A DNA stretch of 64,000 nucleotides from Paenibacillus kribbensis (GTDB lineage Bacteria > Bacillota > Bacilli > Paenibacillales > Paenibacillaceae). Both the position numbers and the translations under genes were made by a program. The notes below the pieces were generated by a model, which was not told the origin of the DNA, made no database searches, and saw nothing but the letters and a program-made list of their open reading frames with translations. The DNA lies in contig NZ_CP020028.1 in NCBI RefSeq assembly GCF_002240415.1, forward strand, positions 5,542,501-5,606,500. Direction: 5' to 3'. Positions 1-26,742 of this stretch are shown one piece after another; position 1 is the first letter of the stretch, and every line of letters begins with the position of its first letter.

Positions 1-3000
1 AGCATTTTGTCTTTGACTCGCTCCCTGTCAGCTGGATCGGCGAGGAATGATTTGTACTGGTCCCCAATGCTGTTCAGAACCACCTCGACAATCTCTTCAA
101 GCTGCTCTGGCGTCGATTCATCCTTGGATGTTTTTCTCATAGCATCCACCATTATGAGGTCGCTGACATGGTGACCTTGGCTTTCCATGGCTTTGGCCAC
201 CTCGAAGGCGAGATTTCCTCCGAGTGAGTACCCCAGGAAAACATATGGGCCCTCTGCTTGAATACCCGTGATGGCATCCACATATCGATCCAGCATATCT
301 TGACCTTGAACATGGTCGCCGATAAATTCGAACCCGTATACTTCACAATGTCCTTCCAGCTCTCTGGCCATCTCATAGTACCCCAGAGAGTAGCCGACCC
401 GAGGAGGGAAGCAAAACACTTTAAGCGTTCCTTTCCCTGGGAAGTGGATAATTTCCATTTCTTCTTCATCAGGAGCAGCTGTTGACCGAAGCTTGGAAAT
501 TTCATGTGCCATTTCCTCCACAGTCGGAAGATTGAACACGAGCTGGAGCGGGAGCTGTACGCCCATGCTGGAAGAGATTTTCTGGATCAATCCCAACACT
601 TTCAGGGAATGGCCCCCAAGCTCGAAGAAGTGATCCTTGACTCCGATTTCCTGCACGCCGAGTACCTCGGTCCAAATCTGCGCCAGTTCTACTTCTGTCG
701 GTGTACGCGGCGGGATATACTCCGCTGTGCTCCGTAGGAGTGCTTCCGGTGCCGGCAGCGCTTTGCGATCCAATTTGCCGTTCGGATTCAGCGGCATTTG
801 CGCCAACTGTACGAAAGCAGTCGGAATCATGTAGCTTGGCAGCTCGCTGGCCAGTGCCTCACGCAACACGCCCGCTGCTACTCCCTCCTCGGCCACAAAG
901 TATGCGCAAAGCTGAGTGCTTCCAGTGGCGTCAGCCAGTGCAAGGACGACTGCTTCCTGCACAGACGGCACTTTAAGAATTTGTGCTTCCACTTCTCCCA
1001 GTTCAATGCGGTAACCCCGGATTTTTACCTGGTGATCAATCCGCCCCAAATACTCAATATTCCCGTCTGGCAGCCATCGTGCCAAATCGCCTGTTCGGTA
1101 AATCCGTGCTCCCGGCTTGTACGGGTGAGGAATGAACTTCTCTGCCGTCAGGTCCGGCTGATTGAAGTACCCTCGCGCTACCCCTTCGCCTGCAATGCAG
1201 AGCTCTCCTGGCACACCTACAGGTGATACCTGAGAAGCACTGTCCATCATCCATACTTGGACGTTAGCGTACGGTTTACCGATAGGTACATGCGTTAGAG
1301 CAGCAGTCTCAGGGCTCGTTGTATACCGGGTTGCATATACGGCTGCTTCCGTAGGACCGTAGATGTTCTCCAGCACTGCGTATGGAGATACTTTGTAGTA
1401 CTCTTCCACAAGCTTGACAGGCAGCGTCTCGCCGCAGGCAAACAGGTATTTCAATGTAAGGAACCCTTGAGTGCCGCTTTCTTTCAAGTATTGAACGAGA
1501 ACACTGAGCATCGACGGCACCAGGTTGAGATGCGTGATCTGATTTGCATCCACGGCCTTCAGCAGTGCCACCGGGTCTTTGTCCGCGCCCTGCGGCAGGA
1601 TCACGAGAGCTCCCTGCCCAAAGAACCAGCAGAACAGCTCCGGTACGGAGAAGTCAAAGGTGAATGTCGTTTTGAGCAGGAATCGGTCGCCTTCCAACAT
1701 CGGATATTCAGCTTCCAACTGGCTCAGCGTATGAACGGCAGAGCGATGCTCAATCATTACACCTTTCGGCTTGCCGGTCGAACCTGACGTGTAAATGATA
1801 TACGCCAGATGCTCCGGCCCCGCAATTGGCTCCAGATTGGAGCTATCAGCATGATATGCCTGCGGATCATCAAGTGCCAGGAGCGTGCCGGTGAACGGAA
1901 AACGATCTTTGAGATGATTTTTCGTCAGCAGAAGCTTCGCCCCTGAATCCTCCAGCATGTGGCGAATACGATCTTCCGGGAACTCCGGATCAATCGGTAC
2001 ATAGGCCCCGCCAGCTTTTAGAATGGCATGAATGCCAATGATCATCTCAAGCGAGCGCTCAACCATGATGCCGACTGGTTGGTCCGGTTTGACCCCTTGA
2101 GCACGCAGCGTACGTGCAAGACGGTTCGCCTGCTGATGCAGCTCTCCGTAGGTAAGCTCCGTTTCACCGTAAATAAGGGCTGTTCGATCCGGTGTGAGCG
2201 CAGCCTTTTCCTCAAATATGCTGTGAAGGGTCTTCTCACGCGGATAAGGAGCTGCTGTATCTCCCCACACTTCGATAATCTGCGCCTTCTCCTGTGCCGT
2301 GATCATGTCCAGGTCGCCAACCGGGATGTGCGGGTTATCGAGCACTTGTTCAAGCAGACGCACCAAATGTCCCTGGAGCCGACGAATGGTTTCCGCTTCA
2401 AACACGAGCGCGTTGTATCTCATATGAAGCTCGAGCTGTGCACCCGGCTCAATGGTCAGAACAAAATCATAGTTCGTTTGTTCGAACGCTTCGATAACGG
2501 TAATCTCCATCTCACCCGAATCGTCTTGTCTCAACTGGCCGAGCCGCTCTTCCACCGGATAGTTTTCAAACACCATGACGTGGTTGATCAAGCTTTGCTT
2601 TTGTCCAGTTAGCGCCTGGATTTCATAAAGCGGATACGTATCGTAAGAATGAGAGGCCAAATACTGCTCTTGCAGCTTTTTCAGCAATTGCGCGAAGGTC
2701 TCCTCTTCCTCGGTTTGAACCCGAACGGGAATTGTATTGATAAACAGGCCGACCATATTCTCAATACCCGGTATTTCTGCAGGTCTTCCCGATACTACGT
2801 TTCCGAAAACGACATCCCGGCTGTTATTGTACCGTTGCAATAGAATTCCCCATACAGCCTGCATCAGCATGCTAACCGTTACTTGATGCTGCTTGGCCAA
2901 TAACTCAATCTGCTTGGCCATATCCTCACCGAGATCGCAGACAACATATTCCAGGCTATACCCTTCGACTTTGCCTTGGGCTTTCCCTTGCGGCAATAGC

Positions 3001-3614
3001 GTTTGTTGTTCATAGTCTTCCAGATACTTGCTCCAATAATCGGCAGCTTTCCCGGCATCCTGACGATCCAGCCACTCGATATAGGTGCTGTAGGACGGCA
3101 CTGGGGGAAGCTCTGGTTGCCTTTGCTCCAGAATCGCCGTATAGTGCTCGAATATTTCTTGCATCAGAAGCGGCACGCACCAGCCATCGATAATAATATG
3201 ATGGAAGCTCCAGATCAGGTTGTAGTTTTCTTCGCCGGTACGGAGGATCGAGATGCGCAGCAGCGCATCCTGGGTCAGATCAAACCCTTTCGCCCGATCT
3301 CGGGCATTAAAGCTTTCCGCATACGCATCGCGCTGCACCTGATCCATACCGCGCAAATCCTCATAATAAAATTCACCTTGCTTGCTGCGGAATACAATTT
3401 GTACAGGCTCGGCCAAACCATTGTAAAAATTGGTGCGCAGTGCGTCGTGGCGCTGCATTAAGGCATCCAGACTCTCGGAGAATACTTGGATGTCCAGACT
3501 TCCTTGAATGCCATAAGTCGATTGTTCGAAGTAAGAACCCGAATTCGACTCCAGCAGATTCAGGAACAGCATGCCCTTTTGCATCGGCGCCAGCTTATAT
3601 ACATTTTCGATCTT
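1..3614 (-). other. NRPS module 7 and thioesterase (truncated)
   Basis: The C domain begins [12 protein letters not shown] with HHIIIDG, the D-donor type. The A domain (about 2270-770) reads D-F-P-N-F-C-I-V-Y-K, which fits none of the standard codes I know. By position it corresponds to the last fusaricidin module, which was reported to activate D-Ala directly and has no E domain. There is none here either. The T domain has GGHSLKV near 620. The type I thioesterase starts near 490 and contains GYSLG with the nucleophilic Ser at 225-227; its Asp and His lie partly beyond the edge. Confidence 0.83.
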
Positions 3615-6600
3615 GCCGACATGCCGGGTTTGTTGCACAAGCTGCTCCAGTTCCTCCATGCTGAGATCCGAAAGCAGCAGATCGCTCGGCGTCAGTTCTG
3701 ACTGCTCTTTACTCGCGCAGTGTAGGATGATTGCCCGAAGGCTGCTCTGAATCAGCTCAGCCAACTTCTCCATCGTCTCCTTGCGGTAGTGGTTTCCGCA
3801 ATAGCTGATGGCTAGCTTCAACACACCTTCCGAAATCATACCGTTGATGTCCAGTACATAATTTCGCGTGCTGTTTTCGCTAATCGCGACGCCCGTTGAA
3901 TAAGGCGAAATGTGCAGCTTATTACTGTCCAAATCCTGGTCAAACTGCCCCAGATAGTTGAAGCTGATTTCCGGCTGAAGACGCAGAGCGTTATCCTCAT
4001 TCTCGCCGTTGCCGGACAGGTAGGTCAAAATGCCATACCCGATGCCCTTATTCGGAATGCGGCGAAGCCCTTCCTTCACACGCTTGATGCGACGCGAAAC
4101 GTCTTGTTCGGCCCCCATCTCCAACACAACCGGATATTGGCTCGTAAACCAGCCTACGGTCCGGGTGATGTCAGTATCCGGAATGATCGGTTCCCGGCCG
4201 TGTCCTTCCAGATTTACCAACACTTCTTCTGTTCCCGTCCAGGCATGAACCGCCATACCCAAAGCGGTCAGCAGCAAGTCGTTTACTTCTGTGTTGTAAG
4301 CGTGGTTAGCCTGCTTCAGCAGCAGCAGGGTCTCCTCCTCGCTCCACCCAGCTACTACCGTTTCGCTGTCACGAACCTGGGCTACAGGGTGAGCAAAATC
4401 CTTCGGCAGCGGTTCGGTGGCTGCTGCCGTCTGCACGATCTGTCGCCAGTACTCCCGCTCGCTTGCCATCGCTGGACTTGCCGCATACCGTGGCAATTGT
4501 TGCGCCCATGTGCGGAACGAGTCCGTTTTATGCGGCAGCCGGATTTCCTGACCACTTACTGCCTGCTCATAGCCTGTGGCGATATCCTCGAACAATATCC
4601 GCCAGGATACTCCGTCCACCGCCAGATGGTGGATGACGATCAGCAAATGGTCGCCGTCCGCGCAGTGGAACAGTCCCAGCTTCAGCAGCGGCCCTTCGCT
4701 CAGGTTTATGCTGCGCTGAATCTCGCTTGCTTTCGCTTCGATGGCGGCTGCGCAGTCGACCTCGCCTCGGAAGTCCGCGATGTCGAGTGTGTACAGATCG
4801 CCCTCGCTGGCGCCACGGTTCCACGCTTCATATCCTCGATCCGCCTGGCGGAACACGAGCCGCAGCGCATCGTGATGCTTGGAAATTTTGTCCATCGTTC
4901 GGCGTAGCGCCGTCAGCTCAAAGCCTTCTGCCCGATACAGCATGATCGCATGGTTATAGTGATGCGGATCAACAGGCGTCTGTTCGAAGAACCAGCGCTG
5001 AATCGGGAGCAGCGGTGTTTCGCCCGTCACTCCCCCTTGATCGGCGATGCGTTCGGCGGTTTGCGCATGCGGGCTAAGTTCTACGATGGTCGAATACTTG
5101 AACAAATGTTTCATATCCAGCTTGTAGCCAGCTTGCAGCAGTCTCGAGGACACCTGGATCGACTTGATCGAATCGCCCCCAAGGTCAAAGAAGTTGTCGT
5201 GAATGCCGATTCTTTCGACACCGAGCACGCCCTGCCAAACGGTAGTCAGCGCTTGCTCTACCGCTGTCCGCGGAGCCTCATAGACGGTTCCGGTCGGCAA
5301 GCTGCTTTCAGGCGCAGGCAGCGCTTTGCGATCGATTTTCCCGTTGGGCGTATATGGCAACCGCTCCAGCTGCACGAAGTACGACGGAATCATATAGCTT
5401 GGAAGCTCCTGCGCCAGCGCTCCACGGAGCTCGCTTGCCGTCAACGGACGGTCAGCAACCAAATACGCGCATAGCTGCTTTTGCCCGTCCTCACTCGTAC
5501 GAGCCGTTACGACGGCTTCTTGCACAGCCTCCACTTTCACCAGCTGCGCTTCCACCTCGCCTAGCTCGATTCGGTAGCCGCGTATTTTCACTTGCTCGTC
5601 GATTCGTCCTAAATATTCGATGTTTCCGTCCGCCTGCCAGCGGGCCAGATCCCCTGTCCGATACATCCGCCCGCCTGGCGCAAACGGATTGTCCACGAAT
5701 TTCTCCGCCGTCAGCTCAGGACGGTTCAGGTAGCCTAGAGCGACTCCGTCTCCGGCAATGTACATCTCTCCGGGTACGCCCGGCGGTACCAGATTGCGCT
5801 GCGAATCGAGCAAATAAATGTACACGTTGTCGGCCGGAACCCCAATCGATACGGACTCCTTCGTATCCCTGACAGGATCGTAGAGGTAAATCATGCATCC
5901 GACTACCGTTTCGGTCGGCCCGTATTCGTTGAAAATTTCGATGTTTCCGCCAAACAGATCAGAGATGTTTTTCGCCAAATGAGTGCTGAGGTTTTCTCCG
6001 CCTACGATCATTTTTCGAATTCTGGATTGTTCGGGCATCTTCATGTCTTTGATCAGGCTCAAATGCGTCGGCGTCAGCTTAAGAATGTCCACCTGATTGT
6101 CCTCGATGATCTGCTGGATTAACGTCCCCTTATCCGCTCCTTCGTAAATGATGATCGTATTGCCTGTGATAAGCGGCGTAAATATTGACGTAAGCGTCAA
6201 ATCGAAAGAAATCGATGAATACAGCGGAAAATCAAGCTTTTCCTCGCCTACATACATTTTTTTCGCCCACCAAATATAGTTGACCAAGCCTTGCTGCGTA
6301 ATCATGGTTCCCTTAGGCAGCCCTGTAGTACCAGAAGTGTAAATGAGATACATCAGATCCTTCGGCTTGACCGTGATGCCCGGATTGGAACGGTCTTCCG
6401 CATATGCCTGGCTGCTGTCCAAATCCATCATCTTGCCTTCGAAGCCCGCCAAGTCAGGCTTTTCCCGCCGTAAGTGACTTTGCGTAAGCAGCAGCTTTGC
6501 ACCCGAGTCTTTTAAAATATAGTGAATCCGCTCTTCCGGATATTCCGGGTCAATTGGCACATAAGCGCCACCGGCCTTCAAAATTCCGAAAATTCCGATC

Positions 6601-9600
6601 ACCATTTCCAGCGAACGTTCGACCATCAGGCCGACGAACTGCTCCGACCGAACGCCTTCGGCGCGCAACGCATGCGCCAGCTGGTTCACCCGATCGTTTA
6701 GCTCGCGATACGTTAGCCGGCTTTCCCCGAACACAACCGCCGTCTGCTCCGGCGTCCGCTCCACTTGCTCCTCGAACATCTGATGAATTGGTTTATCCAT
6801 CGGATAGTCAACCGCGGATGCGTTGAATTGCTCCAGAATCTGCGCTTGCTCCGGAGCCGTGATGATCGCTATCTCCGACAGCTTCATCTCAGGCGCACTC
6901 ACCACCGCATTGATCACCTGCACAAAATGATTCGCGATCCGTTCGGCCGTTTCCCGCCGGAACAGCGCGCTGGCGTACTCAAGGCTGCAGACGAGTTCCT
7001 CGCCTTGCTCCGCTATGAGGAGCGTCAGATCAAATTTGGCAGTTGGGTTCTCATACGCATACGGCTTGAATTGCAATCCGGCAATCTCCCGTTCGCTCTG
7101 CTCCGTATTTTGCAGCACAAACATCGTATCAAACAGCGGATTTCGACTCATATCCCGATTCACATTGAGCTTCGCAACCAATTCCTCGAACGGATAGTCC
7201 TGATGCTCGTACGCTTGCAGTGAAGTTTCTTTGACTTCCTGCAAATAGTCAAGAAACGTTTTCTCGCCAGACGGATAATTGCGGAGTGCAAGTGTGCCGA
7301 CAAACATCCCAATCATACCTTCCAGATCACTGTGCGGTCTTCCCGCAATCGGGCTGCCGACAATCACATCTTCCTGGCCGGTATATTTGTGTAAAAGCGT
7401 CGTATATGCGGACAGCAGCACCATATACAAGGTCGATCCGGTACTTGCCGCAAGCTGTTGTAAAGCACGGCTTTGAGCAGCGTCGATCACAAAATCGACC
7501 TGTTTTCCTGCAAAGCTTCGCTGCGCCGGACGAGTTTCATCCATCGGCAAATCAAGCATCGGCAGCTCGCCGCGGAATACGTCCAGCCAATAGGCTTCCT
7601 GCTTGTCAATCCGCTCGCTTTGCATCTCCATTTGCTGCCATACTGCATAATCTTTGTATTGAATCCGCAGCTCCGGCAGCTCGCTTCCCTCGTACATCTG
7701 AATAAATTCCTCGGTCAACACGCCCATCGAAGTACCATCGGAGATGATATGATGCATATCAAACAGCAACAGATGGCGATCTTGCTGCAGCTTGATCAAT
7801 CCGGCCCGCAGAAGCGGTGCCTGCTGCAAATCGAACGGGCGAATAAAGTCTCGAATGCGGACTTTTGCTTCATCTTCCCGGGCCTCGGCATATTCCACTG
7901 CAAAAGGCACTTCCTCATGCACCCGCTGCACCGGCTCGCCGTTCACGACATCGAAGCTCGTTCTTAGCGTCTCATGCCGGCTTATTAGTCGGCGGAACGC
8001 CGCTTCCAGCCGCGTGCGGTCCAGTTTCCCTTCTACCGTCATAACGCCCGGCATATTGTAGCTGATTTCTCCGCCTTCGAGCTGGCTCAGCACGTACAAT
8101 CGTTTCTGTGCCGAAGATGCCGGATAGTAGCTTCGTTCTCCGGCAGCCGGGATAGAGGCATAGGCTGCTTGATCCCGGCTTGCCATGAGCTCGGCCATCT
8201 CCGCAATGGTAGGAAATTGGAACACTTCCCGCAAGGAAAGAAGGCCGTTCATCTCTTTCTGGATGCGGGCAATCAGAAGCGTGGCACGCAAGGAGTGTCC
8301 TCCGATTTCAAAGAAGTTGTCCTTGATCCCTACACGCCCCACGCCAAGGACGCCCTTCCAGATCTGCGCCAGCCGCGTTTCCATAGGCGTTGTTGGCGCC
8401 TCGTACTTCGCGCCTGTCAACAGATTGCCTTCGGGCACAGGCAGCGCCTTGCGGTCAATTTTTCCATTCGGGCTCAGCGGCATATGCTCAAGCTGTACGA
8501 AGTACGATGGGATCATATAACTCGGAAGCTCCTGTGCCAGTGCTCCACGGAGCTCGCTTGCCGTCAGCTCTGCATTCGCCGTAAAGTACGCGCACATCTG
8601 CTTCTGACCGCTTTCGTCTTCCCGCGCTACGACGACCGTCTCCTGCACAGCCTCCACTTTCAACAGCTGTGTTTCCACTTCTCCGAGTTCAATCCGGTAG
8701 CCGCGTATTTTCACCTGATGGTCGATCCGTCCCAAATATTCGATATTCCCGTCCGCCTGCCAGCGGGCCAGGTCTCCCGTCCGGTACATCCGCTCGCCCG
8801 GTACGAACGGGTTGTCCACGAATTTCTCCGCCGTCAACTCAGGTCGGTTGAGATACCCTCGCGCGACCCCGTCTCCCGCGATGCACAGCTCGCCTGGCAC
8901 GCCAATCGGCTGCAGCTTTCCGCTTTCGCTAACGATATACAGCTGTATATTTGAGATCGGCTTACCGATCGGAACCGTCCGGTACGTTTCGTCCGCTTGC
9001 AAGTTAAAGTACGACACGTCCACCGTTGCTTCCGTCGGTCCATACAAATTCACCAGTTTCGCCTGGCTGACTGGCGCAACGTATTGCTGGAACCGCGCCG
9101 CCGCATTCGGTGTTAATGCTTCCCCGCTTGCAAATACTTGCTTCAGCGAAGCCAGCTTGCTTTGCGCTGGCTCTCCTTGACGCTCGATGTGCTCCAGGAA
9201 GGCGTTTAGCATTGCCGGTACGAAATGCATCGTGCTGATCTTTTGTGCAGCGATCGTCTCCACAATCACTTCCGGGTCTTTCTCCCCACCGACCGGAAGC
9301 AGACACATGCTCGCTCCTACGAACGACCACCAGAACAGCTCCCATACGGAAACGTCGAACGTGATCGCTGTTTTTTGCAGTATCATATCTCCCGCATCCA
9401 GCGGATACGCATCCTGCATCCAGGTCAAGCGGTTGATCACCGACCCGTGTTCGATCATGACGCCTTTCGGCTTGCCTGTTGATCCCGATGTATAAATGAC
9501 ATACGCGATGTCCCGAGGCCCGGCAATCGGCGCCAGATTCGAGCCGTCCTGCGCGTACGCTTGCGCTTCGTCCAGCTTCAAAGTCCGGCCCGCGAAGCTG

Positions 9601-12600
9601 ATGCGGCCCTGCAAATGGCTTTGCAACAGGAGCAGCTTCGCCCCCGAATCTTCCAGCATGTAACGGATGCGCTCTTCCGGGTAGTCTGGATCAATCGGTA
9701 CGTAGGCTCCTCCAGCTTTTAATATGGCGAAAATACCCACCATCATGTCCAGCGAACGCTCGGCCATCAACCCGACGAGCTGATCAGCCTGCACGCCTTC
9801 GGCCCGCAAGGTGCGCGCCAGCCGGTTCGCCCGCTCGTTCAACTCGCGATACGTTAAGCGGCTTTCCCCGAACACAACCGCCGTCTGCTCCGGTGTTCGC
9901 TCCGCTTGCTCCTCAAACATCTGATAGATCGTCTTATCCTTCGGATAGTCAGCCGCGGTCGCGTTGAATTGCTTCAGAATCTGCACCATTTCTTCCCGGG
10001 TAACCAGTTCAAGCTCACTCACAAGCAAGTTTGGATTGGCTGTAATTTGCTCCAGCACATGCACGAAATGCCCTTGCATTCGCTCAACACCCGCTTGCTT
10101 GTAAACAAGGCTATTGTATCGGAAGCTAATCCGAACGGCTTCGCCCGGGATGACGATCAGATTGAAATCGTAGCTCGTTTGATCGAACATGCTGACGTTC
10201 GTAATTTCAAAAGCATCCTCATCAGCGCTGGCCGACTGCTCGATTTGCTGTTCCATAGGATAGTTTTCAAATACCATAATATGGGAAATCAAGCTTTGCT
10301 TCTGTTCGGTTCGCGCCTGAATTTCATAGAGCGGATACGTATCGTAAGCGTTCGATGCCAGAGCCTGCTCCTGGGTTGCTTTCAGCACATCTGCGAAAGC
10401 TGCGCCTTCGTCAGCACAGACGCGAACCGGGATCGTATTGATAAACAGGCCGATCATCGTTTCGATTCCAGTTATTTCTGCAGGCCTTCCGGATACGACG
10501 CTGCCGAAAACAACATCCCTACTGCTGTTGTACCTTTGCAGAACAAGGCCCCAAGCGGTTTGCATCAACGTGTTGATTGTTACTTGATACTGTTTGGAGA
10601 TTGATTCCATTCGGCGAGTTAGTTCCTCGCCCAAGTCGCAAATGAGTTCTTCCGACACATAGCCCTCTGTTCTGCTTTGCGGGTTCTCCTGAATCTCTTG
10701 CGGCAGCTGCGTTTGCTGCTCGTAGCCCTCCAAATACTTGCTCCAGTATGTGGCCGCTTCTTCCAGGTTTTGCCGATCCAGCCATTCGATATATTGACTG
10801 TACGGCAGGACGACGGAAAGCTCCGGCTGCCGCTGCTCCTGGATTGCAGCATAATGCTCGAATACCTCCTGCATCATGATCGGCACGCACCAGCCATCCA
10901 TAATGATGTGATGGAAACTCCAATAGAATCGGTACGTCTGTTCTCCGGTTCGCAAAACCGAAACACGCAACAGCGCATCCTGTGCCAAATCGAATCCTGC
11001 CGTCATATCGTTAACACTGAACGCCTGAGCATACGTCTCGCGTGCGGCTTCCTCCAGTTCGCGTAGATCTTCGTAGTAAAATCCGCACGACTTGTGCCGA
11101 TAGACGACCTGTACGGGCTCAGCCAGCCCGCTGTAAAAGCTGGTGCGCAGCACGTCGTGCCGTTGCACAAGGGCATCCAGACTTTGGACAAAGACATCAA
11201 CGTCCAAGCTTCCTTGAAGGCTGAACACCGCTTGCTCGAAATAAGCTGTCGAACCCGGCTCCAGTTGACTGTGGAACAGCATGCCTTTCTGCATCGATGT
11301 GAGCTTGTACACATTTTCGACCTCACCGATATGCGCGGTTTGTTGCACAAGCTGCTCCAGTTCCTCCATGCTGAGATCCGAAAGCAGCAGATCGCTCGGC
11401 GTCAGCTCCGTCTGCTCTTTATCCGCGCAGTGCAGGATCACTTCCCGGAGACTCGTACGGAGGAGATCAGAAAGTTTTTCAACCGTTTCTTTGCGGTATT
11501 GCCGCCCATTGTAATCAATTGTCAGCGACAAGACACCCAGCGAGATCATGCCGTTAATATCCAGCGTATAGCGCTGTGCCATCTTCTCGCTTATGGAAGC
11601 TCCGACCGAATAAGGCGAAATGTGCAGCTTGTTACTATCCAAGTCCTGGTCGAACTGCCCCAGATAGTTGAAGCTGATTTCCGGCTGAAGACGCAGAGCG
11701 TTATCCTCATTCTCGCCGTTGCCGGACAGGTAGGTCAAAATGCCATACCCGATGCCTTTATTCGGAATGCGGCGAAGCCCTTCCTTCACACGCTTGATGC
11801 GACGCGAAACGTCTTGTTCGGCCCCCATCTCCAGCACAACCGGATATTGGCTCGTAAACCAGCCTACGGTCCGGGTGATGTCAGTATCCGGAATGATCGG
11901 TTCCCGTCCATGTCCCTCCAGACTTACCAGTACTTGCTCTGTTCCTGTCAAGGCATGAACCGCCATACCCAAAGCGGTCAGCAGCAAGTCGTTTACTTCT
12001 GTACTGTAGGCGTGGTTGGCCTGCTTCAGCAGCAGCGAGGTCTCCTCCTCGCTCCATTGCACGGTGACCGTTTCGCCCTCGATTCGGGTCGGGTTATCGT
12101 GCATTTCATCTTTCGGTAGCGGGTCAGTCGCTGCTGCCGTCTGCACGATCTGCCGCCAGTACTCCCGCTCGCTTGCCATCGCCGGACTTGCCGCATATTG
12201 TGGCAACTGCTGCGCCCATGTGCGGAACGAGTCCGTTTTATGTGGCAGCCGGATTTCCCGACCGCTTGCCGCCTGCTCATAGCCTGTGGCGATATCCTCG
12301 AACAATATTCGCCAGGATACCCCGTCCACCGCCAGATGGTGAATGACGATCAGCAAATGGTCGCCGTCCGCGCAGTGGAACAGTCCCAGCTTCAGCAGCG
12401 GCCCTTCGCTCAGGCTTATGCTGCGCTGAATCTCGCTTGCTCTCGCTTCGATGGCGGCTGCGCAATCGGCCTCGCCTCGGAAGTCCGCGATGTCGAGCGT
12501 ATACAGCTCGCCCTCGCTGGCGCCGCGGTTCCACGCTTCGTATCCGCGATCCGCCTGACGGAACACGAGCCGCAGCGCATCGTGATGCTCGGCAATCCTA

Positions 12601-15600: not shown

Positions 15601-18600
15601 TCTTCCCGGACTTCTGCATATTCCACCGCAAAAGGCACTTCCTCATGCACCTGCTGTACCGGCTCGCCGTTCACGACATCGAAGCTCGTTCTCAACGTCT
15701 CGTGCCGATGTATCAGCTGGCGGAACGCGCCTTCCAGCCGCGTGCGGTCCAGTTCCCCTTCCACCGTCATAACGCCCGGCATATTGTAGCTGATTTCTCC
15801 GCCTTCGATCTGGCTGAGCACGTATAAACGCTTCTGTGCCGAAGATACCGGGTAGTAGCTTCGTTCCCCGACGACCGGAATGGAAGCATAAGCCGCTTGA
15901 TCCCGGCTTTCGATTATTTCGGCCATCTGTTCGATGGTCGGGAATTGAAATACCTCCCGGAGGGCGATATGGCCGTTCAGCTCTTTGTGAATACGGGACA
16001 CGAGAAGCGTAGCCCGCAAAGAGTGTCCTCCGATATCAAAGAAGTTGTCTTTAATCCCAACGCTTTGCAGCCCCAGCACTTCCTGCCAAATGTTCGCCAG
16101 ACTCACTTCTATCGGCGTTCTTGGCGCCTCATGCCGCGACCCGGCTGTTTCGCTTTCCTGCGGCGCCGGCAGTGCTTTGCGGTCAACTTTCCCGTTGGGG
16201 GTCAGCGGCAGCCGATCTACTTGAACAAAATAGGCCGGAAGCATGTAAGCCGGAAGCTCCTGCGCAAGCGCAGCTTTAAGCTCGCTGACTGACAGGGTTT
16301 TATCCGCAGCGAAGTAGGCTGCCAGTTGCTTCTGTCCGGTCTGGTCCTCGCGTGCGATGACAACGGCTTCCTGTACGGACTCGACCTGTAAAAGGTGTGC
16401 CTCCACTTCGCCCAGCTCGATTCGATAGCCGCGAATCTTCACCTGCGCGTCGATTCTGTCCATATACTCGATGTGACCGTCTTCCCGCATCTTCACCAGA
16501 TCGCCGGTCCGGTAAAGCCTACCTCCCGCTGCAAATGGGGAATAAATGAACTTCTCCTCTGTCAACTCCGGCCGGTTCAAATAACCTTGAGCCAATCCGT
16601 CGCCACCGATATACAGTTCTCCTGGAATACCCGCAGGCAGAGGGTGTTGATCATGATCCATCACGTATACCGACGTATTGCTGATCGGTTTGCCGATCGG
16701 CACGGTATGCGCTGACTCTTCCAAATGATTCACCGCATAGTAAGTCGCAAATACGGTACTTTCAGTCGGTCCGTACACATGAATGATCCGGTTCGGGCCA
16801 AGATTCGCAAATGCTTTCCGCACATGGCTAATCGAAACCTTCTCCCCGCCGAACAGCAGCGTATCAAGCGTTTCAAAGCAGCCTACGTCAATATCTGTCA
16901 GTGTATTAAACAGAGCGGTTGTCATAAAGCATTTTGTGATCCGCTGAGTCTGCAGCACATGCGCCAGCTCGCGTGCATCCAGCACTTGGTCACGGGTGAT
17001 CAGCACGAGCGAGGCTCCGTTCAACAGTGCGCCGTAAATATCGAATGTAGAGCCGTCGAACGAAAAGCTGGACAACTGCAAAACACGATCCTGCGTTGAA
17101 AAACGGATATAGTTTGTCTCTTTGACGACGCGACTGATGTTAAAATGCATCGTCAAGTTGCCTTTCGGCTTGCCTGTCGAACCGGAGGTATATATGATGC
17201 ATGCCAGCGAATCCGAGCCGTTCACGGGCTGAAGATCGCTCGTTTCTTGCTGATAATGACTCTTATCCGTCAGATCCACCACAAGTCCTGCGAACTCCAC
17301 TTTATCCCGTACTTGGGGCTGAGTGAGCAGTACCTTGGCGTCCGAATCCTCCAGGATATAGCGAATACGTTCCTCCGGATATTGCGGGTCGATCGGCACA
17401 TAGGCTCCGCCAGCTTTTAAAATACCGAATATCCCGACGATCATTTCAAGGGAACGCTCGGCCATGAGTCCGACCGGCTGATTCGGTTGAACACCGCTAT
17501 TGCGGAGCGTGCGCGCCAGTCCATTGGCCTGTTCGTTAAGCTCCCTGTAAGTCAACCGCTCGTCTCCGAAAACGAGAGCCGTTGCGTCCGGCGTGCGTTC
17601 CGCCTGTTCTTCGAACAGCCGATGAAGTGTCTTCTCCTTTGGATAAGAAGTTGTCGCACTGCCTCCCAGAAGCAGCATCTGCGCCTCCTCTTGCGGCGTC
17701 GCCAGCTTCAGCTCGTTCACACGAATGTTCGGGCGGCTTACCACCTGTTCCAACATATGAATCAGCTGTCCCTGAATCTGTTCGATGCCAGACTGTTCAT
17801 AGACGAGCTCGTTATAGCGGAATACGATTTTAAATTCTTCGCCCGGCAAAACAATCAGATTGAAATCGTAATTTGTCTGTTCAAACAGCTCGGCATCCGT
17901 AATCTCAAAAGCCGCTTGCTCCCCGCCCAACAGCTCGATTTGCTGTTCTACAGGATAGTTTTCAAATACCATGATATGTGTGATCAAATGCTGTTGTCCG
18001 GTTTGCGTCTGAATCTCATAAAGAGGGTACGTATCGTAGGCATGGGAAGCCAGGTACTGTTGCTGCTGCCGTTTGACCATATCTGCGAAACCGATGGTTT
18101 CGTCTGATCGTACACGTACTGGAATCGTGTTGATAAACAGTCCGATCATGCTTTCAATCCCCGGTATTTCCGCAGGTCTTCCCGATACAACACTGCCGAA
18201 AACAACGTCCCTGCTGCTATTGTATTTTTGCAGTACGATTCCCCAAACGGTTTGCATCAATGTGCTGACTGTCACCTGGTGCCGTTTTGCCGCCTGTTCG
18301 ATTCGCCCGGTCAGATCCTTGCCCAGCCCGCAAACGATCTGTTTTGAAACGTAAGCTTCCGGCTTGTTTTGGGCTTTCGCTTGAGGAATCTGCGTATGCT
18401 GTTCGTAATCTGCCAAATAGTCGCTCCAGTATCCGGCTGCCGCCTGATCATCCTGCCGATCCAGCCATTCGATATAACGACTGTACGGCAAAGCTGGGAG
18501 AGACTCAGGTTCTCTCTGCTGGCTGATCGCGAAATAGGTTTCGAACACCTCCCGTGTAATGAGAGGCACGCACCAGCCGTCCATAATGATATGATGGAAG

Positions 18601-21600
18601 CTCCACATAAGCAGATAATCCGCTTCGCCCTTGTGCAGAACGGAAACACGAAGCAGTGCGTCCTGCGTCAAATCAAACCCTCTGTTTCTGTCATCATCTA
18701 TATAATTCCGGATATACGCCTCGCGCTGCAATTCCTCCATCCCGCGCAGGTCTTCATAATTGAATTCACTCCGTTTGGTTCGATAAACGATTTGTACCGG
18801 GTCGCCCCATCCGTTATAAAAATTGGTGCGGAGCGCAGCATGTCTTTGTACCAAAGCATTCAGGCTTTGCGCGAAGCTTGACGCGTCAAAATGGCCATGC
18901 CATTCGAACGTCGCTTGCTCGAAGTACGAAAGTGAATGCGGCTCCAGCAGGCTGTGGAAAAACATGCCCTTTTGCATCGGCGTCAGCTTGTACACATTTT
19001 CGATTTCGCCAACGTGCTGGTGATGTGCCGCCAGTTGATCGAGCTGTTCTATGGTCAATCCCTTCAGCAATATGTCGCTTGGCGTCAATTCGGCCGTTTC
19101 TTTGCTTGTGCAGTGCCGGATGACTTTTTGCAAGGATGTCCGGATGAGCTCGGATAGCCGCTCCACCGTTTCTCTGCGGTATTGTTTGCTGCTGTAAGTG
19201 ATAGCAAGCGACAGCGTTCCCTCGGAAATCATCCCGTTCATATCCAAAGTATAAGCTTGCGCTGCATGTTCGCTTATCGCACTGCCTGTCGAATAGGAAG
19301 ATAGCTGCAACGAACTGTTGTCCAAGTCTTGATCGAATTGGCCCAAGTAATTAAAGCTGATTTCCGGCTTGAGCTCACGTACAACACCTTCCAGATTTGC
19401 AGACCCATATTTCAGGAGGCCGAAGCCAATGCCTTTATGCGGAATGCTGCGCATACTTTCTTTGATCCGCTTAATTTGGCCCGACAAGTCGTTGTTGCTT
19501 CCCATTTCCAAGGCAACCGGGAATTGGCTTGTGAACCAGCCTACGGTACGGGTGATGTCGAGATCCGGGATAATCGGCTCCCGGCCGTGTCCTTCCAGAT
19601 TGACCAGCACTCGCCCGATACCGCTCCAGGTCTGAACGGCCAGCCCCAGTGCCGTTAAAAGCAAGTCGTTCGTCTCCGTATTGTAAGTGCGGTTCGCCTG
19701 CTTGAGCAGCAGCTCCGTTTCCTCTTCGGTCCATTGAACCGTGATGGTTTCGCTGTCGAGAACCAGCGGGCAGGCCTGTGCCTCGTCCTTCGGCAACGGC
19801 TCTGCAGCTATCCGTCCGAGCTGTTCCCAATAAGCCCGCTCCTGTTCCATCGCCGGACTTTCCGCGTACAGCGACAACTGCTGTGCCCATGTCCGGTAGG
19901 AATCCGTTTTTTGCGGAAGCTGAATCTCCTGGCCGTTTATCGCCTGCTCGTAGCCTGCCGCAATATCTTCGAACAAAATTCGCCACGACACACCGTCTAC
20001 GGCCAAATGGTGAATGACAATCAGCAGATGATCCCCTTCCGCGCACCGGAACAATCCCAGCTTCATCAAAGGACCATGAATCAGATCGATGCCGCGTTGG
20101 ATTTCGCTTGCTTTCGCTTGGATGGCTGCCTCGGGGGCAACCTGTTCTTTGAAATCGACAATTTCCAAAGTATACAGTTCGCCTTCCACCATGCCGCGAT
20201 TCCACGCCTCATATCCATGTTCCGTCTGGCGGAACACCAGCCGCAGTGCATCGTGATGTTCGGCGATCCTCTTCATCGTTTGATGAAGCGCCGCTTCCTC
20301 AAAACCATTCTCCCGATACAGCATGACAGCCTGGTTAAAGTGGTGCGGACTTACGGAATGCTGCTCGAAAAACCAGTGCTGAACCGGGAGCAGCTTGGTC
20401 GCACCACTGACTTCCCCTTGCTCCGCTATGCGACTGACCGTTTGGACATACGGGCTCAGTCCCGCAATGGTCGGATGCTTGAACATATCTTTCATTTCCA
20501 GCTTGTAGCCAGCTTGGAACAGCCTTGAAGACACCTGGATCGATTTGATCGAATCGCCCCCAAGGTCGAAGAAGCTGTCGTGAATGCCGATATTGCGTAC
20601 ACCGAGCACGCTTTGCCAAACGGAAGCCAGAGCTTGCTCCACAGCTGTCCGCGGTGCAGCGTACTCAGTTCCCGTGTGAACATTCTCCTCTGGAGCTGGC
20701 AGCGCTCTACGATCCACCTTCCCGTTGGCCGTCAGCGGAAGCTGCTCGAGTTGGACAAAGTAGGACGGAATCATGTAATTGGGTAGTTCTTTTGCCAATG
20801 CGCTTCTGATCTCGCCCGCGCTCAGCCGGTTGCTGGCTGCAAAATAGGCACAAAGCTGTTTTTGTCCGCTTTCGTCCGCCCGCGCAATCACGACGGCTTC
20901 CTGAATCGCTTCTATCTTGGCAAGCTGAGCCTCCACTTCGCCCAGCTCAATGCGGAAACCACGGATTTTCACCTGCTCATCAATCCGTCCCTTGATCTCA
21001 AGGTTTCCATCAGCACGCCAACGAACCAAATCACCTGTCCGGTAACAGATCTCTCCTGGCTTTACCGGGTCTTGAACAAACTTCTCCATCGTCAGTTCCG
21101 GGCGGTTCAAATATCCGCGTGCAACTCCATCCCCGCCGACAATCAGCTCGCCCCATGCCCCAATTGGCAGCAGCTTCATCGAGCTGTCCACGACATAAGC
21201 CGTTGAGTTGCGGATCGGCCGACCGATTGGCGCCGATTCCGTGAGTTCGCCGGGAATCGCATAGGTCGTCGAGAACGTCGTATTTTCCGTCGGGCCGTAA
21301 CCGTTCACGATACCGAGGCCCGGATTGTCCCGCAGCACCCGGTTGATATGCGGCGCTGAGAGCATGTCGCCCCCGACGATCAGCGTCTTGATCGCGCCAA
21401 ACAGCTTGCTGTCCTGCTGCGACAGCTGGTTGAACAGCGGAGAGGTCAGCCACATGGTTGTAATGCCGTATTGTTCGACAGCCTGCCTAAGCTTCTGGGC
21501 ATCCAGAATGACATCGTTGCTAGCCAGATAGAGCTGACCGCCATTCAGCAACGCTCCCCAAATTTCGAATGTGGACGCGTCGAACACCACTGCACCTGTT

Positions 21601-24600
21601 TGCAAAATTCGCGTCGTTTCATCTAATTGGGCATAGTCGGTATGCTTCACCAAACGCACAACGTTCCGGTGTTCAACCATTACGCCTTTTGGTCTGCCTG
21701 TCGTTCCCGACGTATAAATCACATAAGCCAGATCGCCGGGAGCGCCGGTCAAGCCGAGATTCGACCCGTCTTCGGCATATGCCGCGTCATCGTCCAGATC
21801 GATGACGCTCCCGGCAAAGCCGATATCGGCCACGTCGTCCCGCCGGATGAGTAAGAGCTTCGCTCCCGAATCCTCCAGCATATATCCGATGCGCTCCGCC
21901 GGATAATCCGGGTCAATCGGCACGTAAGCTCCGCCGGCCTTGAGGATCGCCAACACGCCAACGACCAGCTCGATCGACCGATGGGCGGCAATCGCCACGG
22001 GCTGATCCTGAACGACCCCCTTGTCGCGGAGTGTCCGTGCCAGCCGGTTTGCCCGCTCGTTCAGTTCGCGGTACGTCAGGTGCGCGTCTTCGAATACGAC
22101 GGCCACATGTGCCAACGACCCTGCCGCTTGCTCCTCAAACAACTGATGAATCGTCTTCTCACGCGGATAATCCGCTGCCGTCGCGTTGAATTGCTCCACG
22201 ATCCGCGCCTTTTCCTGCGGCGTAATGATCTCGATCGACGATAGCTTTGTCTCGGGTTTCTCCAGAATAACGTCAATCAATTGCAGCAGGTGCTTCGTCA
22301 TCCGTTCCACGGTTTCCCGTTGGAACAGCGCAGTCGCGTACTCCAGGCTGCATGCCAGTTCTTCCTCGTTCTCGGTTACATGGAACGTCAAGTCGAATTT
22401 TGCCGTCTGATGAGGGTGAGCATAAGGTTTAAACTGCAATCCGTCGATTTCCTGATCCCTTTGTTCTGTGTTTTGCAATACAAATAAGGTGTCAAATATC
22501 GGATTGCGGCTTAAATCTCGTCTGAGATCAAGCTTTTCGACCAGTTCTTCGAACGGAAAATCCTGATTTTCATACGCTTTTAACGCCGATTCCTTGACTT
22601 CCAGCACATACTGATAGAAAGTCTTGTCTGCAGCCGGAAAGTTTCGGAGCGCGAGCGTATTAACAAACATTCCGATCATGCCCTCCAGATCAGCGTGCGG
22701 TCTGCCGGCGATCGGGGTTCCCACGATAATGTCTTCCTGCCTTGTATATTTGTGAAGCAATGCAGTGTAAGCGGAGAGCAGCACCATAAACAAGGTGGAA
22801 CCGGTTTCGGCGGCAAGCTGCTGTAAAGCATGGGTTTGTCGCTGATTAACGACAAATTCAATCGAGCTTCCCGCGAAGCTCTGTACGGGCGGTCTAGCAT
22901 AATCGGTCGGCAATTCGAGCACGGGCAGCTCGTCGCGATAGACATCCAGCCAGTATGCTGCCTGCTTGCTCAGCCGTTCGGATCGAGCTTCAGCCAGCTG
23001 CCAAGCCGCATAGTCCTTGTATTGAATCCGCAGCTTCGGCAGTTCTTCCCCTTCATAAAACCGGTTGAATTCTTCAACCAAAATGTTGATGGACGCGCCG
23101 TCGGAAACGATATGATGCATATCGAACAACAAAAGATGACGCTCCGCCTCCAGTTCGATCAATCCCACTCGCAGAAGTGGCGCCTGCCGAAGATCGAATG
23201 CCCGTACAAAACGGCGAATGTGAGCTGGCGCTTCCTCCTCCTTGGCTTGAATGTACTCTACCGCAAAGGGAACCTCCGGCTGCACGCGCTGCACCGGTTC
23301 ACCGTTCACCACGTCAAAGCTCGTTCTCAGCGTCTCGTGCCGACGGATCAATTGACGGAACGCCTCTTCTACTCGCGAGCGATCCAGACTCCCTTCCACC
23401 ATTAGCACGCCCGGCATGTTATAGCTGGTTTCCCCACCTTCGAGCTGGCTCAGCAAGTACAGCCGCTTTTGAGCCGAAGAGACAGGATAATACGCTTGTC
23501 CCTCGACACTTGGTATGGATGCATAGTCAACATGCTCCCTTCCATCCAGCAACTGTGCCATTTGCTCAATGGTCGGCGCTTGAAACACTTCCCGCAGGGA
23601 TATGCCGACATTCATTTCTTTTTGAATCCGGGCCGTTACGATTGTGGCCCGCAAGGAATGCCCTCCGATCTCAAAGAAGTTGTCCTTGATCCCGACGGTT
23701 TGCAGTCCCAGCACTTCCTGCCATATTCGCGCAAGCTGCGCTTCCCGCTCGCTTCTGGGCGCTACATACTCTTGTCCGGTATTCATATGTCCTTCCGGCG
23801 CAGGCAGCGCCTTGCGATCAATTTTGCCATTCGGGCTCAGCGGCATATGCTCAAGCTGTACGAAGTACGATGGGATCATATAACTCGGAAGCTCCTGTGC
23901 CAGTGCTCCACGGAGCTCGCTTGCCGTCAGCTCTGCATTCGCCGTAAAGTACGCGCACATCTGCTTCTGACCGCTTTCGTCTTCCCGCGCTACGACGACC
24001 GTCTCCTGCACAGCCTCCACTTTCAACAGCTGTGTTTCCACTTCTCCGAGTTCAATCCGGTAGCCGCGTATTTTCACCTGATGGTCGATCCGTCCCAAAT
24101 ATTCGATATTCCCGTCCGCCTGCCAGCGGGCCAGGTCTCCTGTTCGGTACATCCGCTCGCCCGGTACGAACGGGTTGTCCACGAATTTCTCCGCCGTCAA
24201 CTCAGGTCGGTTGAGATACCCTCGCGCGACCCCGTCTCCCGCGATGCACAGCTCGCCCGGCATGCCGATCGGCTGCAGCTTTCCGCTTTCGCTAACGATA
24301 TACAGCCGTATATTCGAGATCGGCTTACCGATCGGAACCGTCCGGTACGTTTCGTCCGCTTGCAAGTTAAAGTACGACACGTCCACCGTTGCTTCCGTCG
24401 GTCCATACAAATTCACCAGTTTCGCCTGGCTGACTGGCGCGACGTATTGCTGGAACCGCACCGCCGTATTCGGTGTTAATGCTTCCCCGCTTGCAAATAC
24501 TTGCTTCAGCGAAGCCAGCTTGCTTTGCGCTCGCTCTCCTTGACGCTCGATGTGCTCCAGGAAGGCGTTTAGCATCGCCGGTACGAAATGCATCGTGCTG

Positions 24601-26681
24601 ACCTTTTGTGCAGCGATCGTCTCCACAATCACTTCCGGGTCTTTCTCCCCGCCGACCGGAAGCAGACACATGCTCGCTCCCACAAACGACCACCAAAACA
24701 GCTCCCATACAGAAACGTCGAACGTGATCGCTGTTTTTTGCAGTATCATATCTCCCGCATCCAGCGGATACGCATCCTGCATCCAGATTAAGCGGTTGAT
24801 CACCGACCGATGCTCGATCATGACGCCTTTCGGCTTGCCCGTCGTTCCCGACGTATAGATCACGTAAGCAAGATCGGCCGATGCGTTGATGCTCTCCAAA
24901 TTCGCGCCGTCCTCGCTGTAAATGACCGGATCGTCCAGCAGCATGACCCTGCCCGCAAAGTGGACGTGATCCTGCAAATGGCTTGGCAGCAGGAGCAGCT
25001 TCGCCCCCGAATCCTCCAGCATGTAACGGATGCGCTCTTCCGGGTAGTCTGGATCAATCGGTACGTAGGCTCCTCCAGCTTTTAATATGGCGAAAATGCC
25101 CACCATCATGTCCAGCGAACGCTCGGCCATCAACCCGACCAGTTGATCACCCTGTACGCCTTCGGCCCGCAAGGTGCGCGCCAGCCGGTTCGCCCGCTCG
25201 TTCAACTCGCGATACGTTAAGCGGCTTTCCCCGAACACAACCGCCGTCTGCTCCGGTGTTCGCTCCGCTTGCTCCTCGAACATCTGATGGATCGTTTTAT
25301 CCTTCGGATAGTCAGCCTTTGTATCATTGAACACGGCCAAAATCTCATTTTTTTCCTGTTCATTGATCAGAGATATCTCCGATATTTTTTGTTCGGGATT
25401 TTCGGCTATATGTTCCGTTATTACAAGGAGATGTCGAATAATTCTCGCGATCTCACCTGCATCGAACAGGCGGGAACGGTAATCGACATGCAGCACCAAT
25501 TGATCTTCATCCAGCAACTCAGCAATATGAAGCACCAAATCATTGACTTCATCGCCGCCAAAATCATAATCCGTATGAACGCGAACGTCATCCAAATCCA
25601 CCCAGCTTACCGGACGATATTCCATCGAAATGCCGAACAGCCGCTGGATATCCTTGCTGCGGTTGGTTTCCCTTAAATCCTGAATCAATTGATTATATGG
25701 ATACTTTTGATGCCGTAAAATCGTGGTTTGATCTTTGGCTACGCTCAGCAAAAAGCTCATCAAATCAGCGTCAGAGTCAACAAAAGACCTGGCTGCTATT
25801 GTGCTGACGAACATGCCCACCGTATTTTTTTCTTTCTTGGTCGAACGGTTGGCAAACGAGGTGCCGATTGCAATATCCTGCTCGCCGGTCGCTTTGTGCA
25901 TATAAATGTACATTGCCGCCATAAAAAATTGAAACAAGCTGACTTTATGATCTTGGCAAAATTGTTTTATTACCTTGTACAAACCGCCGTCTACTGTAAA
26001 ATGCGCTCTTTGGGCAGCCGTACTCAACAGCAACGGATCATACGGTTTCAATCCGGTCACGTCGGGCAGCCCGGCAAATTTATCGTTCCAGAACTCCTTG
26101 TCCTTTGCAAACCGCTCGGACTGTACATAGGCTTCTTCCGTTTGGATATATTCGATATAAGAATATTCTTCGCCCAGTTGGGGTTCTATTCCCCGAATGA
26201 TATCAATGTAATATTCCGTTAACTGGTTTCCGAAAAGAACCATGGAAATGCCGTCGGAAATAATGTGATGCGTTTTAACACTCAGCCAATACTCGTCATC
26301 GCTGATTCTAATAAACAAAAATTGAAAAAGCTCATTGTTGAGCAGTTCAAGAGGCGTTTGGTTATGACGCTCCAACCAGGCTTTCAATTCATCTATACTT
26401 TTGAAATCCGCTGCATCCAGGCAAGTGAACTCCTTGTCCTCAAAAGGAACCACGTATTGCCGGGGAATGCCGTTCTCGGCCATGATGCGAATGCGAAAAG
26501 CATCGTATTGCTTAATGACCATATTGATGGAGCGCTTTAAGGCATCTATGTTCATTTTCCCTTTAAACTTTACTGTCCCGAGGAGCAGTGATACGGACGT
26601 ATTCGGGTAAAGCAGCTCAGTGTACCAAATCCGCTGTTGTGCATTCGTTAAAGGAAAAAATCGCTGTACGTTGTTATTCAT
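1..26681 (-). CDS. fusA: Seven-module nonribosomal peptide synthetase, fusaricidin-type (3' end outside window)
   Basis: The reading frame is open from an ATG at 26681, preceded by a purine-rich ribosome site (AGAGGAAT), to the window edge: 8,893 codons. It should assemble a cyclic lipopeptide in the cytoplasm. Domain order is Cstarter-A-T, C-A-T-E, C-A-T, C-A-T-E, C-A-T, C-A-T-E, C-A-T-TE. All seven C domains keep HHxxxDG, all three E domains keep HHLAVDG, and every T domain keeps its GGxS serine. The terminal thioesterase has GYSLG with Ser8819. It starts about 61 bp after the FabZ-like gene, as last gene of the operon. Described fusaricidin synthetases have six modules and about 7,900 residues; this one is about one C-A-T unit longer. 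The symbol is used by locus analogy and is not elongation factor G. Modules are listed separately. Confidence 0.95.
3615..8149 (-). other. NRPS module 6: C - A (Asn code) - T - E, gives D-Asn
   Basis: The C domain starts [15 protein letters not shown] with HHIISDG, the L-donor type, consistent with the preceding non-epimerising module. The A domain (about 6800-5320) reads D-L-T-K-I-G-E-V-G-K, the asparagine code. The T domain is GGDSIKS (near 5170) and the E domain (about 5070-3690) keeps HHLAVDG. This corresponds to D-Asn5 of fusaricidin. Confidence 0.86.
3890..5330. repeat. T6-E6 repeat (pairs with about 11600-13040)
   Basis: The T-E portion of module 6 matches that of module 4 at a constant offset of 7,710 bp, with long identical runs such as around 3930-4180 versus 11640-11890. 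A further matching block spans the E-to-C junction (about 3590-3735 versus 11300-11445), separated by about 150 bp that has diverged. Confidence 0.85.
8150..11324 (-). other. NRPS module 5: C - A (Ser code) - T, extra relative to six-module fusaricidin synthetase
   Basis: The C domain begins [12 protein letters not shown] with HHIIMDG, the post-epimerase type, and so matches the upstream E domain. The A domain (about 9960-8440) reads D-V-W-H-F-S-L-V-D-K, identical to module 1. No E domain follows, and the next C domain is of the L-donor type, so an L-Ser is expected. In fusaricidin synthetase a single epimerising module lies between residue 4 and the last module. Here there are two, and this non-epimerising one is the added unit. 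Confidence 0.83.
8456..9477. repeat. Near-identical copy of the A1 domain core (pairs with 23819-24840)
   Basis: About 1.0 kb of the module 5 adenylation domain matches 23819-24840 of module 1 at a constant offset of 15,363 bp. I count roughly 20 to 25 mismatches by eye, including a stretch of more than 300 bp (about 8465-8790) without a difference. The block covers the substrate-binding residues through the catalytic-lysine region. Upstream of the YTSG motif the copies diverge for about 140 bp and then become similar again. Confidence 0.88.
11325..15889 (-). other. NRPS module 4: C - A (atypical Ser-like code) - T - E
   Basis: The C domain starts [15 protein letters not shown] with HHIVSDG. 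The A domain (about 14530-13020) reads D-V-W-H-S-S-L-V-E-K. It shares the serine framework of modules 1 and 5 but has S for F at position 299 and E for D at position 331. The T domain is GGDSIKS (near 12870) and the E domain (about 12770-11390) keeps HHLAVDG. Fusaricidin has D-allo-Thr at residue 4. I predict D-Ser, or a related hydroxy amino acid, with moderate certainty. Confidence 0.78.
11600..13040. repeat. T4-E4 repeat (pairs with about 3890-5330)
   Basis: Partner of the T6-E6 repeat. The C4 and C6 domains also match over several hundred bases (for example 14880-15180 versus 7150-7450, offset about 7,728). Together these give a repeating unit of about 7.7 kb corresponding to two modules, C-A-T-E-C-A-T. 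Confidence 0.85.
15890..19009 (-). other. NRPS module 3: C - A (Ile/Val-type code) - T
   Basis: The C domain begins [11 protein letters not shown] with HHIIMDG, the type found after epimerases (D donor, L acceptor). The A domain (about 17650-16170) reads D-G-F-F-L-G-V-V-F-K, one residue from the common isoleucine code. The corresponding fusaricidin position varies between Val, Ile, Phe and Tyr, so relaxed selection among branched residues is likely. T domain GGHSLRA near 16020. Confidence 0.83.
19010..23529 (-). other. NRPS module 2: C - A (Val code) - T - E, gives D-Val
   Basis: The C domain starts YPVSSAQKR and has HHIVSDG, as in condensation domains that accept an L-configured donor. The A domain (about 22190-20690) reads D-A-F-W-I-G-G-T-F-K, the textbook valine code, matching D-Val2 of fusaricidin. 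The T domain has GGDSIKS (near 20550), the form found before epimerases. The E domain (about 20440-19060) keeps HHLAVDG, so the residue should be handed on as D-Val. Confidence 0.87.
23530..26681 (-). other. NRPS module 1: starter C - A (Ser code) - T
   Basis: The first C domain (about 26660-25350) begins [10 protein letters not shown] and has HHIISDG. It precedes any T domain, so it should transfer the fatty acyl group to the first amino acid. The A domain (about 25330-23800) has the ten specificity positions D-V-W-H-F-S-L-V-D-K (the Lys from the NGKIDRK motif), the classical serine code. Fusaricidin carries threonine at this position, whose hydroxyl closes the ring, so Ser1 is the expected lactone nucleophile here. 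The T domain (GGHSLRA, near 23660) is the non-epimerising type. Confidence 0.85.
23819..24840. repeat. Near-identical copy of the A5 domain core (pairs with 8456-9477)
   Basis: Module 1 partner of the repeat at 8456-9477. The flanking C1 and C2 domains do not share this identity with their module 5 counterparts, so the block looks like a subdomain exchange inside an A domain. Confidence 0.88.
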
Positions 26682-26742
26682 AACCTATTCCTCTTCCCTT
26701 CTTGTGATTGCGATGACCCTATTTCCTTAATGCAGGTTCACG

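Follow-up and report, generated by a model that had tools for sequence, protein, structure and literature searches.

A bracidin-type seven-module synthetase in the fusaricidin operon of Paenibacillus kribbensis and the mosaic structure of its locus

FusA, the fusaricidin synthetase of the Paenibacillus polymyxa group, is a six-module enzyme (PMC8621861), and in P. polymyxa WLY78 every one of the genes fusB to fusG was required for anti-Fusarium activity (PMC6829208). For P. polymyxa DSM 32871, ions at m/z 869.53 and 855.51 have been proposed to be fusaricidins with Ser in place of Thr1, or of both Thr1 and Thr4 (PMC8621861). A seven-residue compound, bracidin, was described by Kim et al. in 2024 from cluster BGC5 of P. 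brasilensis KACC 13842, which carries the antiSMASH label fusaricidin B and has E domains in modules 2, 4 and 6; the predicted peptide is Ser-DVal-Val-DSer-Ser-DAsn-Ala, whereas NMR gave Ser-DVal-Val-DAla-Ser-DAsn-Ala with a MW of 926 (PMC11210098). A strain in which BGC5 was the sole remaining cluster of five gave the LC/MS peak and inhibited Micrococcus luteus; deletion of BGC5 abolished both and made the antifungal activity weaker (PMC11210098). With the bracidin peptide and a C15 guanidino-hydroxy acid, a tail that is assumed here and that the available text of Kim et al. does not name (PMC11210098), the computed average mass is 926.11, fitting the published value. Besides its bracidin locus, P. 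brasilensis holds a second, degraded canonical fusaricidin locus (G007:C1 at ~4637840, L127/L128), described as a pseudogene of which 55% is deleted (PMC11210098). Paenilipoheptins are lipoheptapeptides too, with a beta-amino fatty acid, and the synthetase of the paenidepsins, a twelve-residue family, was set aside as a counterpart since it consists of two NRPS proteins as against the one seven-module protein found here (PMC13036774).

The locus considered here lies in a window of 64,000 nt (the whole stretch of DNA that was analysed), bases 5542501-5606500 of a 5.78 Mb genome in a single contig. On the minus strand a frame opens with an ATG at 26681 and reaches base 3 with zero stops; the ORF is incomplete within the window, and the orthologous frame of P. 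brasilensis has 8985 codons, TE included. Substrate codes were read by alignment of the A domains at the positions of the GrsA scheme, with the customary substrate readings of the codes and the customary names of the C-domain types. The parts of the synthetase are as follows.

3..26681, minus strand: fusA orthologue, seven-module bracidin-type synthetase, 8893 codons, overrunning the window start (ORF list, Pfam and motifs)
25380..26681, minus strand: C1, starter condensation domain (motifs, homology)
23823..25307, minus strand: A1, code DVWHFSLVDK (Ser)
20682..22166, minus strand: A2, code DAFWIGGTFK (Val)
19983..20012, minus strand: active-site motif of E2
16158..17642, minus strand: A3, code DGFFLGVVFK (Ile-type; Val-type in P. 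brasilensis)
13047..14531, minus strand: A4, code DVWHSSLVEK (identical in P. brasilensis, whose product has D-Ala at this position)
12312..12341, minus strand: active-site motif of E4
8460..9944, minus strand: A5, code DVWHFSLVDK (Ser)
5307..6791, minus strand: A6, code DLTKIGEVGK (Asn)
4602..4631, minus strand: active-site motif of E6
759..2243, minus strand: A7, code DFPNFCIVYK (Ala); the canonical-like tail starts at ~2291
3..422, minus strand: initial part of the thioesterase (TE) domain, the Pfam match being cut by the window edge

Pfam, with the protein searched as two halves, returned 4+3 A domains, 4+3 T domains, one TE and 6+5 condensation-family stretches; these 11 stretches represent seven C and three E domains because the split of the protein bisected E4. 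The order resolved by motifs is C-A-T, C-A-T-E, C-A-T, C-A-T-E, C-A-T, C-A-T-E, C-A-T-TE, with E domains after T2, T4 and T6 and nowhere else. An earlier note on this DNA had placed E domains in modules 2, 4 and 6, which the motifs bear out, and had counted seven A, seven C, seven T and three E domains and a TE in one frame; the counts hold, with the reservation that the frame is not complete in the window and that the TE is partial there (profile positions 2-136 out of 226).

An assembly duplication is an unlikely source of the seventh module, because the genome is one contig and the longest identical stretch between A1 and A5 is only 314 bases; seven modules are likewise found in P. brasilensis, in a single open frame, and in P. 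farraposensis, in two open frames with a 10-N assembly gap between them. Module skipping occurs in some other synthetases. That the seven-module frame would yield a hexapeptide in this way, or be silent in the strain, is nonetheless highly improbable, as the core motifs of A5, T5 and C6 are intact and in P. brasilensis an enzyme with this module order makes a heptapeptide (PMC11210098).

Upstream of the synthetase, and all in a single orientation, are six genes in the order fusG-F-E-D-C-B.

26743..27153, minus strand: fusB, FabA-like dehydratase (start set by analogy with P. polymyxa fusB, which has 408 bp; the mechanical ORF is 26743-27273)
27164..28423, minus strand: fusC, beta-ketoacyl synthase
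28429..30129, minus strand: fusD, thiamine-diphosphate (TPP) enzyme
30126..31349, minus strand: fusE, aldehyde dehydrogenase family
31447..32907, minus strand: fusF, acyl-activating enzyme
32920..33699, minus strand: fusG, enoyl reductase

By order and predicted function these correspond to fusB to fusG of P. polymyxa WLY78, where fusD, fusE and fusF have equal lengths and fusG and fusC differ by at most 18 bases (PMC6829208). The genes further upstream are ordered as in G026, the only canonical fusaricidin genome compared for neighbours, with trkH, lysS and greA at 95-99% identity and eight more at 83-98%, so the locus occupies the same chromosomal place. The earlier recognition of a fusaricidin locus with genes for a guanidino fatty acid is therefore confirmed, all six genes being found in order and in the neighbourhood seen in canonical G026. 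A 23S rRNA gene is present beyond the window start in the strain's own genome (L009:6000-7500), and the fus locus is thus close to an rRNA operon. A promoter scan returned 5 promoter-like sites against 2.9 expected, a result that was left unused, and found no terminator-like sites.

The window and the bracidin cluster BGC5 are alike in their seven modules, in E domains in modules 2, 4 and 6, in lipid genes, in chromosomal neighbourhood and in two breakpoints described below. Their C1 domains are 92% identical and their A codes identical in six of seven modules; the sole difference is in A3, which reads DGFFLGVVFK (Ile-type) in the window as against DAFWIGATFK (Val-type) in BGC5. In a tree of the core, the window, P. 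brasilensis and P. farraposensis form one clade (100/100), and the window core is orthologous to that of the bracidin synthetase, not a case of convergent architecture. The compound class is consequently already known as bracidin and the architecture is not new; a seven-residue type of fusaricidin, thought to be undescribed when the locus was first read, had been published in 2024 with the same module and E-domain layout (PMC11210098). What had been predicted as a new antibiotic is thereby dereplicated, and what is new here is the prediction of Ile3, the make-up of the inserted unit and the mosaic. In the literature searched, the name bracidin otherwise turned up only where that work is cited. 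No description of a seven-module fusaricidin synthetase was found in the available text of PMC7017464, PMC8324883 and PMC10938842; in a protein database search none of the 85 proteins listed exceeded 7933 residues, and the absence of bracidin-sized proteins from that search is uninformative.

The residue most in need of reconsideration is the fourth. The A4 code agrees with the Ser code at 8 of 10 positions; A4 of P. brasilensis shares all ten code residues (92% identity overall) and A4 of P. farraposensis also has the identical code (97%). Because the code equals that of P. brasilensis A4, for which NMR gave Ala, residue 4 of the window product is most likely D-Ala, and DVWHSSLVEK, which prediction misreads as Ser, is now tied to an NMR structure. 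A Ser4 heptapeptide, in which A4 loads Ser as its code suggests, is an unlikely alternative: A domains can be promiscuous, the code is close to that for Ser and antiSMASH also predicted Ser for the P. brasilensis enzyme, yet bracidin has D-Ala by NMR at exactly this predicted-Ser position and the window code is identical (PMC11210098). Neither DVWHSSLVEK nor DVWHASLVEK was found in a literature text search. The latter is the A4 code of the six-module synthetase of P. massiliensis, related to window A4 and near the Ser code, and from this relation the odd A4 code probably predates the seventh module; the six-module synthetase of P. tyrfis has a Thr code at A4.

With D-Ala at position 4 and the Ile-type A3, the likeliest predicted product is [Ile3]bracidin, C43H77N11O12, with a computed [M+H]+ of 940.583 (926.567 with Val3), where Ser4 would give 956.578 (942.562 with Val3). 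FusB-G would make and activate a 15-guanidino-3-hydroxypentadecanoyl tail, which C1 would put onto Ser1; D-residues would be formed at positions 2, 4 and 6, and the TE would release the product with the ring closed by an ester to the Ser1 hydroxyl. The enzyme would thus work in the manner of fusaricidin synthetase and add one more residue; we infer this tail, and by analogy with the family the closure on Ser1. The last fusaricidin module prefers D-Ala, and as A7-T7-TE is the fusaricidin end, D-Ala would also be expected at position 7. In bracidin this residue is given as Ala, without the D (PMC11210098). The backbone in the earlier note, Ser-D-Val-Ile-D-Ser-Ser-D-Asn-Ala, agrees with the codes for Ser1, Val2, an Ile-type A3, Ser5, Asn6 and Ala7, and departs from the present reading at Ser4, probably D-Ala; the ion near 956.58 that it proposed presumes Ser4 and gives way to 940.583, which corrects the expected mass for anyone testing the strain. 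Nor is Ser at positions 1 and 4, then believed to be undescribed, unheard of, given the fusaricidins with Ser for Thr1 and Thr4 already proposed (PMC8621861).

In comparison with FusA of the P. polymyxa group, the window has the same fusG-F-E-D-C-B-A operon at the same locus, with lipid genes at 87-96%, and its A7-T7-TE is the counterpart of the last FusA module (84-96% identical). The last two modules carry the Asn and Ala codes DLTKIGEVGK and DFPNFCIVYK and are followed by a terminal TE as in canonical G026, the TE of the window being cut. The two differ in module number, six against seven, and in the window's Ser codes at A1 and A5 and odd code at A4: G026 has DFWNIGMVHK (Thr) at both A1 and A4, where the window has DVWHFSLVDK and DVWHSSLVEK, and fusB and most of the synthetase are only 55-67% identical. 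This divergence is confined to one block.

2291..27215, minus strand: divergent core, comprising the fusC 3' end, fusB, modules 1-6 and C7, its ends being the breakpoints

The core (~25 kb) has ~60% nucleotide identity to canonical fusaricidin loci and is nearest to P. massiliensis. The canonical set comprised 11 loci from 11 genomes, one of them the degraded P. brasilensis locus, whose C2 and C4 values (26, 27) were disregarded because those domains are missing. All 11 showed the same pattern against the window at the amino acid level, with fusC-G at 87-96%, A7 at 95-96% and T7-TE at 84-92%, and within the core fusB at 59-64%, C1 at 59-61% and the remaining domains at 55-67%; the value for C7 is that of the best C domain per locus, because the best canonical match to C7 seems to be the C domain of another module. 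P. massiliensis, whose synthetase is the nearest relative of the window core, shows the reverse pattern, with fusB at 84%, C1 at 81% and the remaining core domains at 70-78%, as against A7 at 71%, TE at 58% and lipid genes at 59-81%. Its A2 and A3 codes are the same as those of the window and its A4 code is related, while it is unlike the window in having six modules and a Thr code at A1.

The edges of the block are sharp. Near the fusC 3' end, at window position 27215, DNA identity goes from 80-94% through 76-80% to ~60% (four canonical loci), and in the C7-A7 linker, at residue 8131 (~window 2291, mapped from the A7 anchor), it goes from 52-58% to 85-92% (seven canonical loci). Against eight canonical loci, both breakpoints are common within one tile to all four bracidin-type loci, namely the window, P. 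brasilensis, P. farraposensis and P. terrae PIC167; the last (G062) is like the window in both breakpoints as well as in fusB, C1 and the A domain for Asn, but has N gaps inside the gene, and neither the core tree nor the core test includes it. AU tests rejected three arrangements: the core as a single P. polymyxa-group clade (3.8e-40), and a grouping with P. massiliensis of either the bracidin flanks (8.6e-67) or the bracidin tails (2.3e-5). The tail tree was built without P. tyrfis, P. tianmuensis, P. sp. A3 and panacisoli, whose loci were available in part, and the P. sp. A3 contig (L061) is absent from every tree. The synthetase is thus chimeric and the locus a sharp mosaic. No statement of such a mosaic was found in a limited literature search, in which Kim et al. 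was available as part of its text, nor in the literature on fusaricidin synthetase and recombination as judged by titles and the starts of abstracts. The C-A linker breakpoint, common to four genomes, exemplifies the natural swapping of a very large synthetase core, with a working enzyme in P. brasilensis at least, and is useful to those who recombine such enzymes.

Within the core, the domains have different histories. Affinities were assigned with 60-residue tiles compared against six-module enzymes.

6897..10049, minus strand: A5-T5-C6, gained relative to six-module synthetases; ends approximate, near C-A linkers

Tiles of C5 are mostly nearest to P. massiliensis C5, those of A5 to A1 and A4, and those of T5-C6 to T3-C4, and the core of A6 is nearest to the Asn A domain (A5) of six-module enzymes; in the C tree, C6 groups with C4 (99/97). 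From these tile affinities and the C tree, the gain is best viewed as an A-T-C unit that lies between C5 and the A domain for Asn, with junctions near the C-A linkers, and not as the C-A-T unit before the Asn module that had been suggested, since C5 matches that of the six-module P. massiliensis enzyme. The same tree separates C3, C5 and C7 from C2, C4 and C6, each trio being a clade, as expected of C domains located after an E domain and those located elsewhere. C6 falls outside the set containing P. massiliensis C4 (90/87), and the seventh module may for this reason predate the split from P. massiliensis and have been lost there. A1 and A5 are 91-100% identical in DNA in 11 of the 13 tiles, the remaining two having 88 and 59, and A4 and A5 are 81-95% identical; the near-identity of A1 and A5, together with their 314-base exact stretch, suggests a recent conversion between them. 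The A3 core of P. brasilensis falls among A2 domains, and the Ile-type A3 of the window is also present in P. massiliensis and P. tyrfis.

The order and direction of the exchange events are ones that we infer from these patterns. The most economical account has a single founding double crossover, at the fusC 3' end and the C-A linker of the last module, by which ~25 kb (fusC 3' end, fusB, modules 1-6 and C7) would have been swapped into a fusaricidin operon by homologous recombination, turning a fusaricidin line into a bracidin line; the locus would afterwards have spread, or been sorted, among related species. The donor core would be of P. massiliensis-like ancestry, with A-T-C already gained between C5 and the Asn A domain. 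The bracidin core is favoured as the newcomer because it is rarer, a C1 at 92% or more to that of the window occurring in 4 of 394 family genomes, and because in the flank tree its carriers are found amid canonical ones. In that tree the bracidin label needs three changes, and one bracidin clade appears in 0% of 200 bootstrap trees and is weakly rejected by the AU test (p 0.04); the tree is poorly resolved, 7 of its 18 inner branches being open, and 108 out of 500 shuffles perform equally well.

A reverse history, in which the bracidin core is older at the locus and the canonical core was imported into other P. polymyxa-group species, is less probable, though it deserves some weight: identity of the core to P. 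massiliensis (70-84%) is similar to that of fusC and fusG (80-81%), about the vertical expectation, so that the newcomer could instead be the canonical core. Against it, the canonical core is far commoner, with 11 loci among those examined, and bracidin carriers are interspersed with canonical ones in the flank tree. The biochemistry is unchanged by either direction. Overall, the locus is very probably best explained by a bracidin-type synthetase that would produce [Ile3]bracidin and whose 25-kb core was exchanged in a fusaricidin operon. A broader proposal, for which the chances appear about even, is that the fus operon is a natural exchange platform for cores of ~25 kb, in which the cores would be interchangeable, bounded at one end by conserved genes for the tail and at the other by a conserved A-T-TE for release, one double crossover having made the heptapeptide line, which then passed between species.

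Two further synthetases were noted in addition to these loci. In P. tianmuensis (G395:C44, L152/L153, P0013) a four-module synthetase of 4895 aa, ordered C-A-T, C-A-T-E, C-A-T, C-A-T-TE, adjoins fusB-G-like genes and has a C-starter 65% identical to that of the window. Its codes are DFWNIGMVHK, DAWVIGAICK, DGFFLGVVYK and DMKDVGVVDK, and a four-residue relative of fusaricidin is a possible product. In the strain's own genome, at ~3.05-3.11 Mb (G000:C1), an NRPS frame of 14082 codons has a C-starter that shares 49% identity with that of the window.
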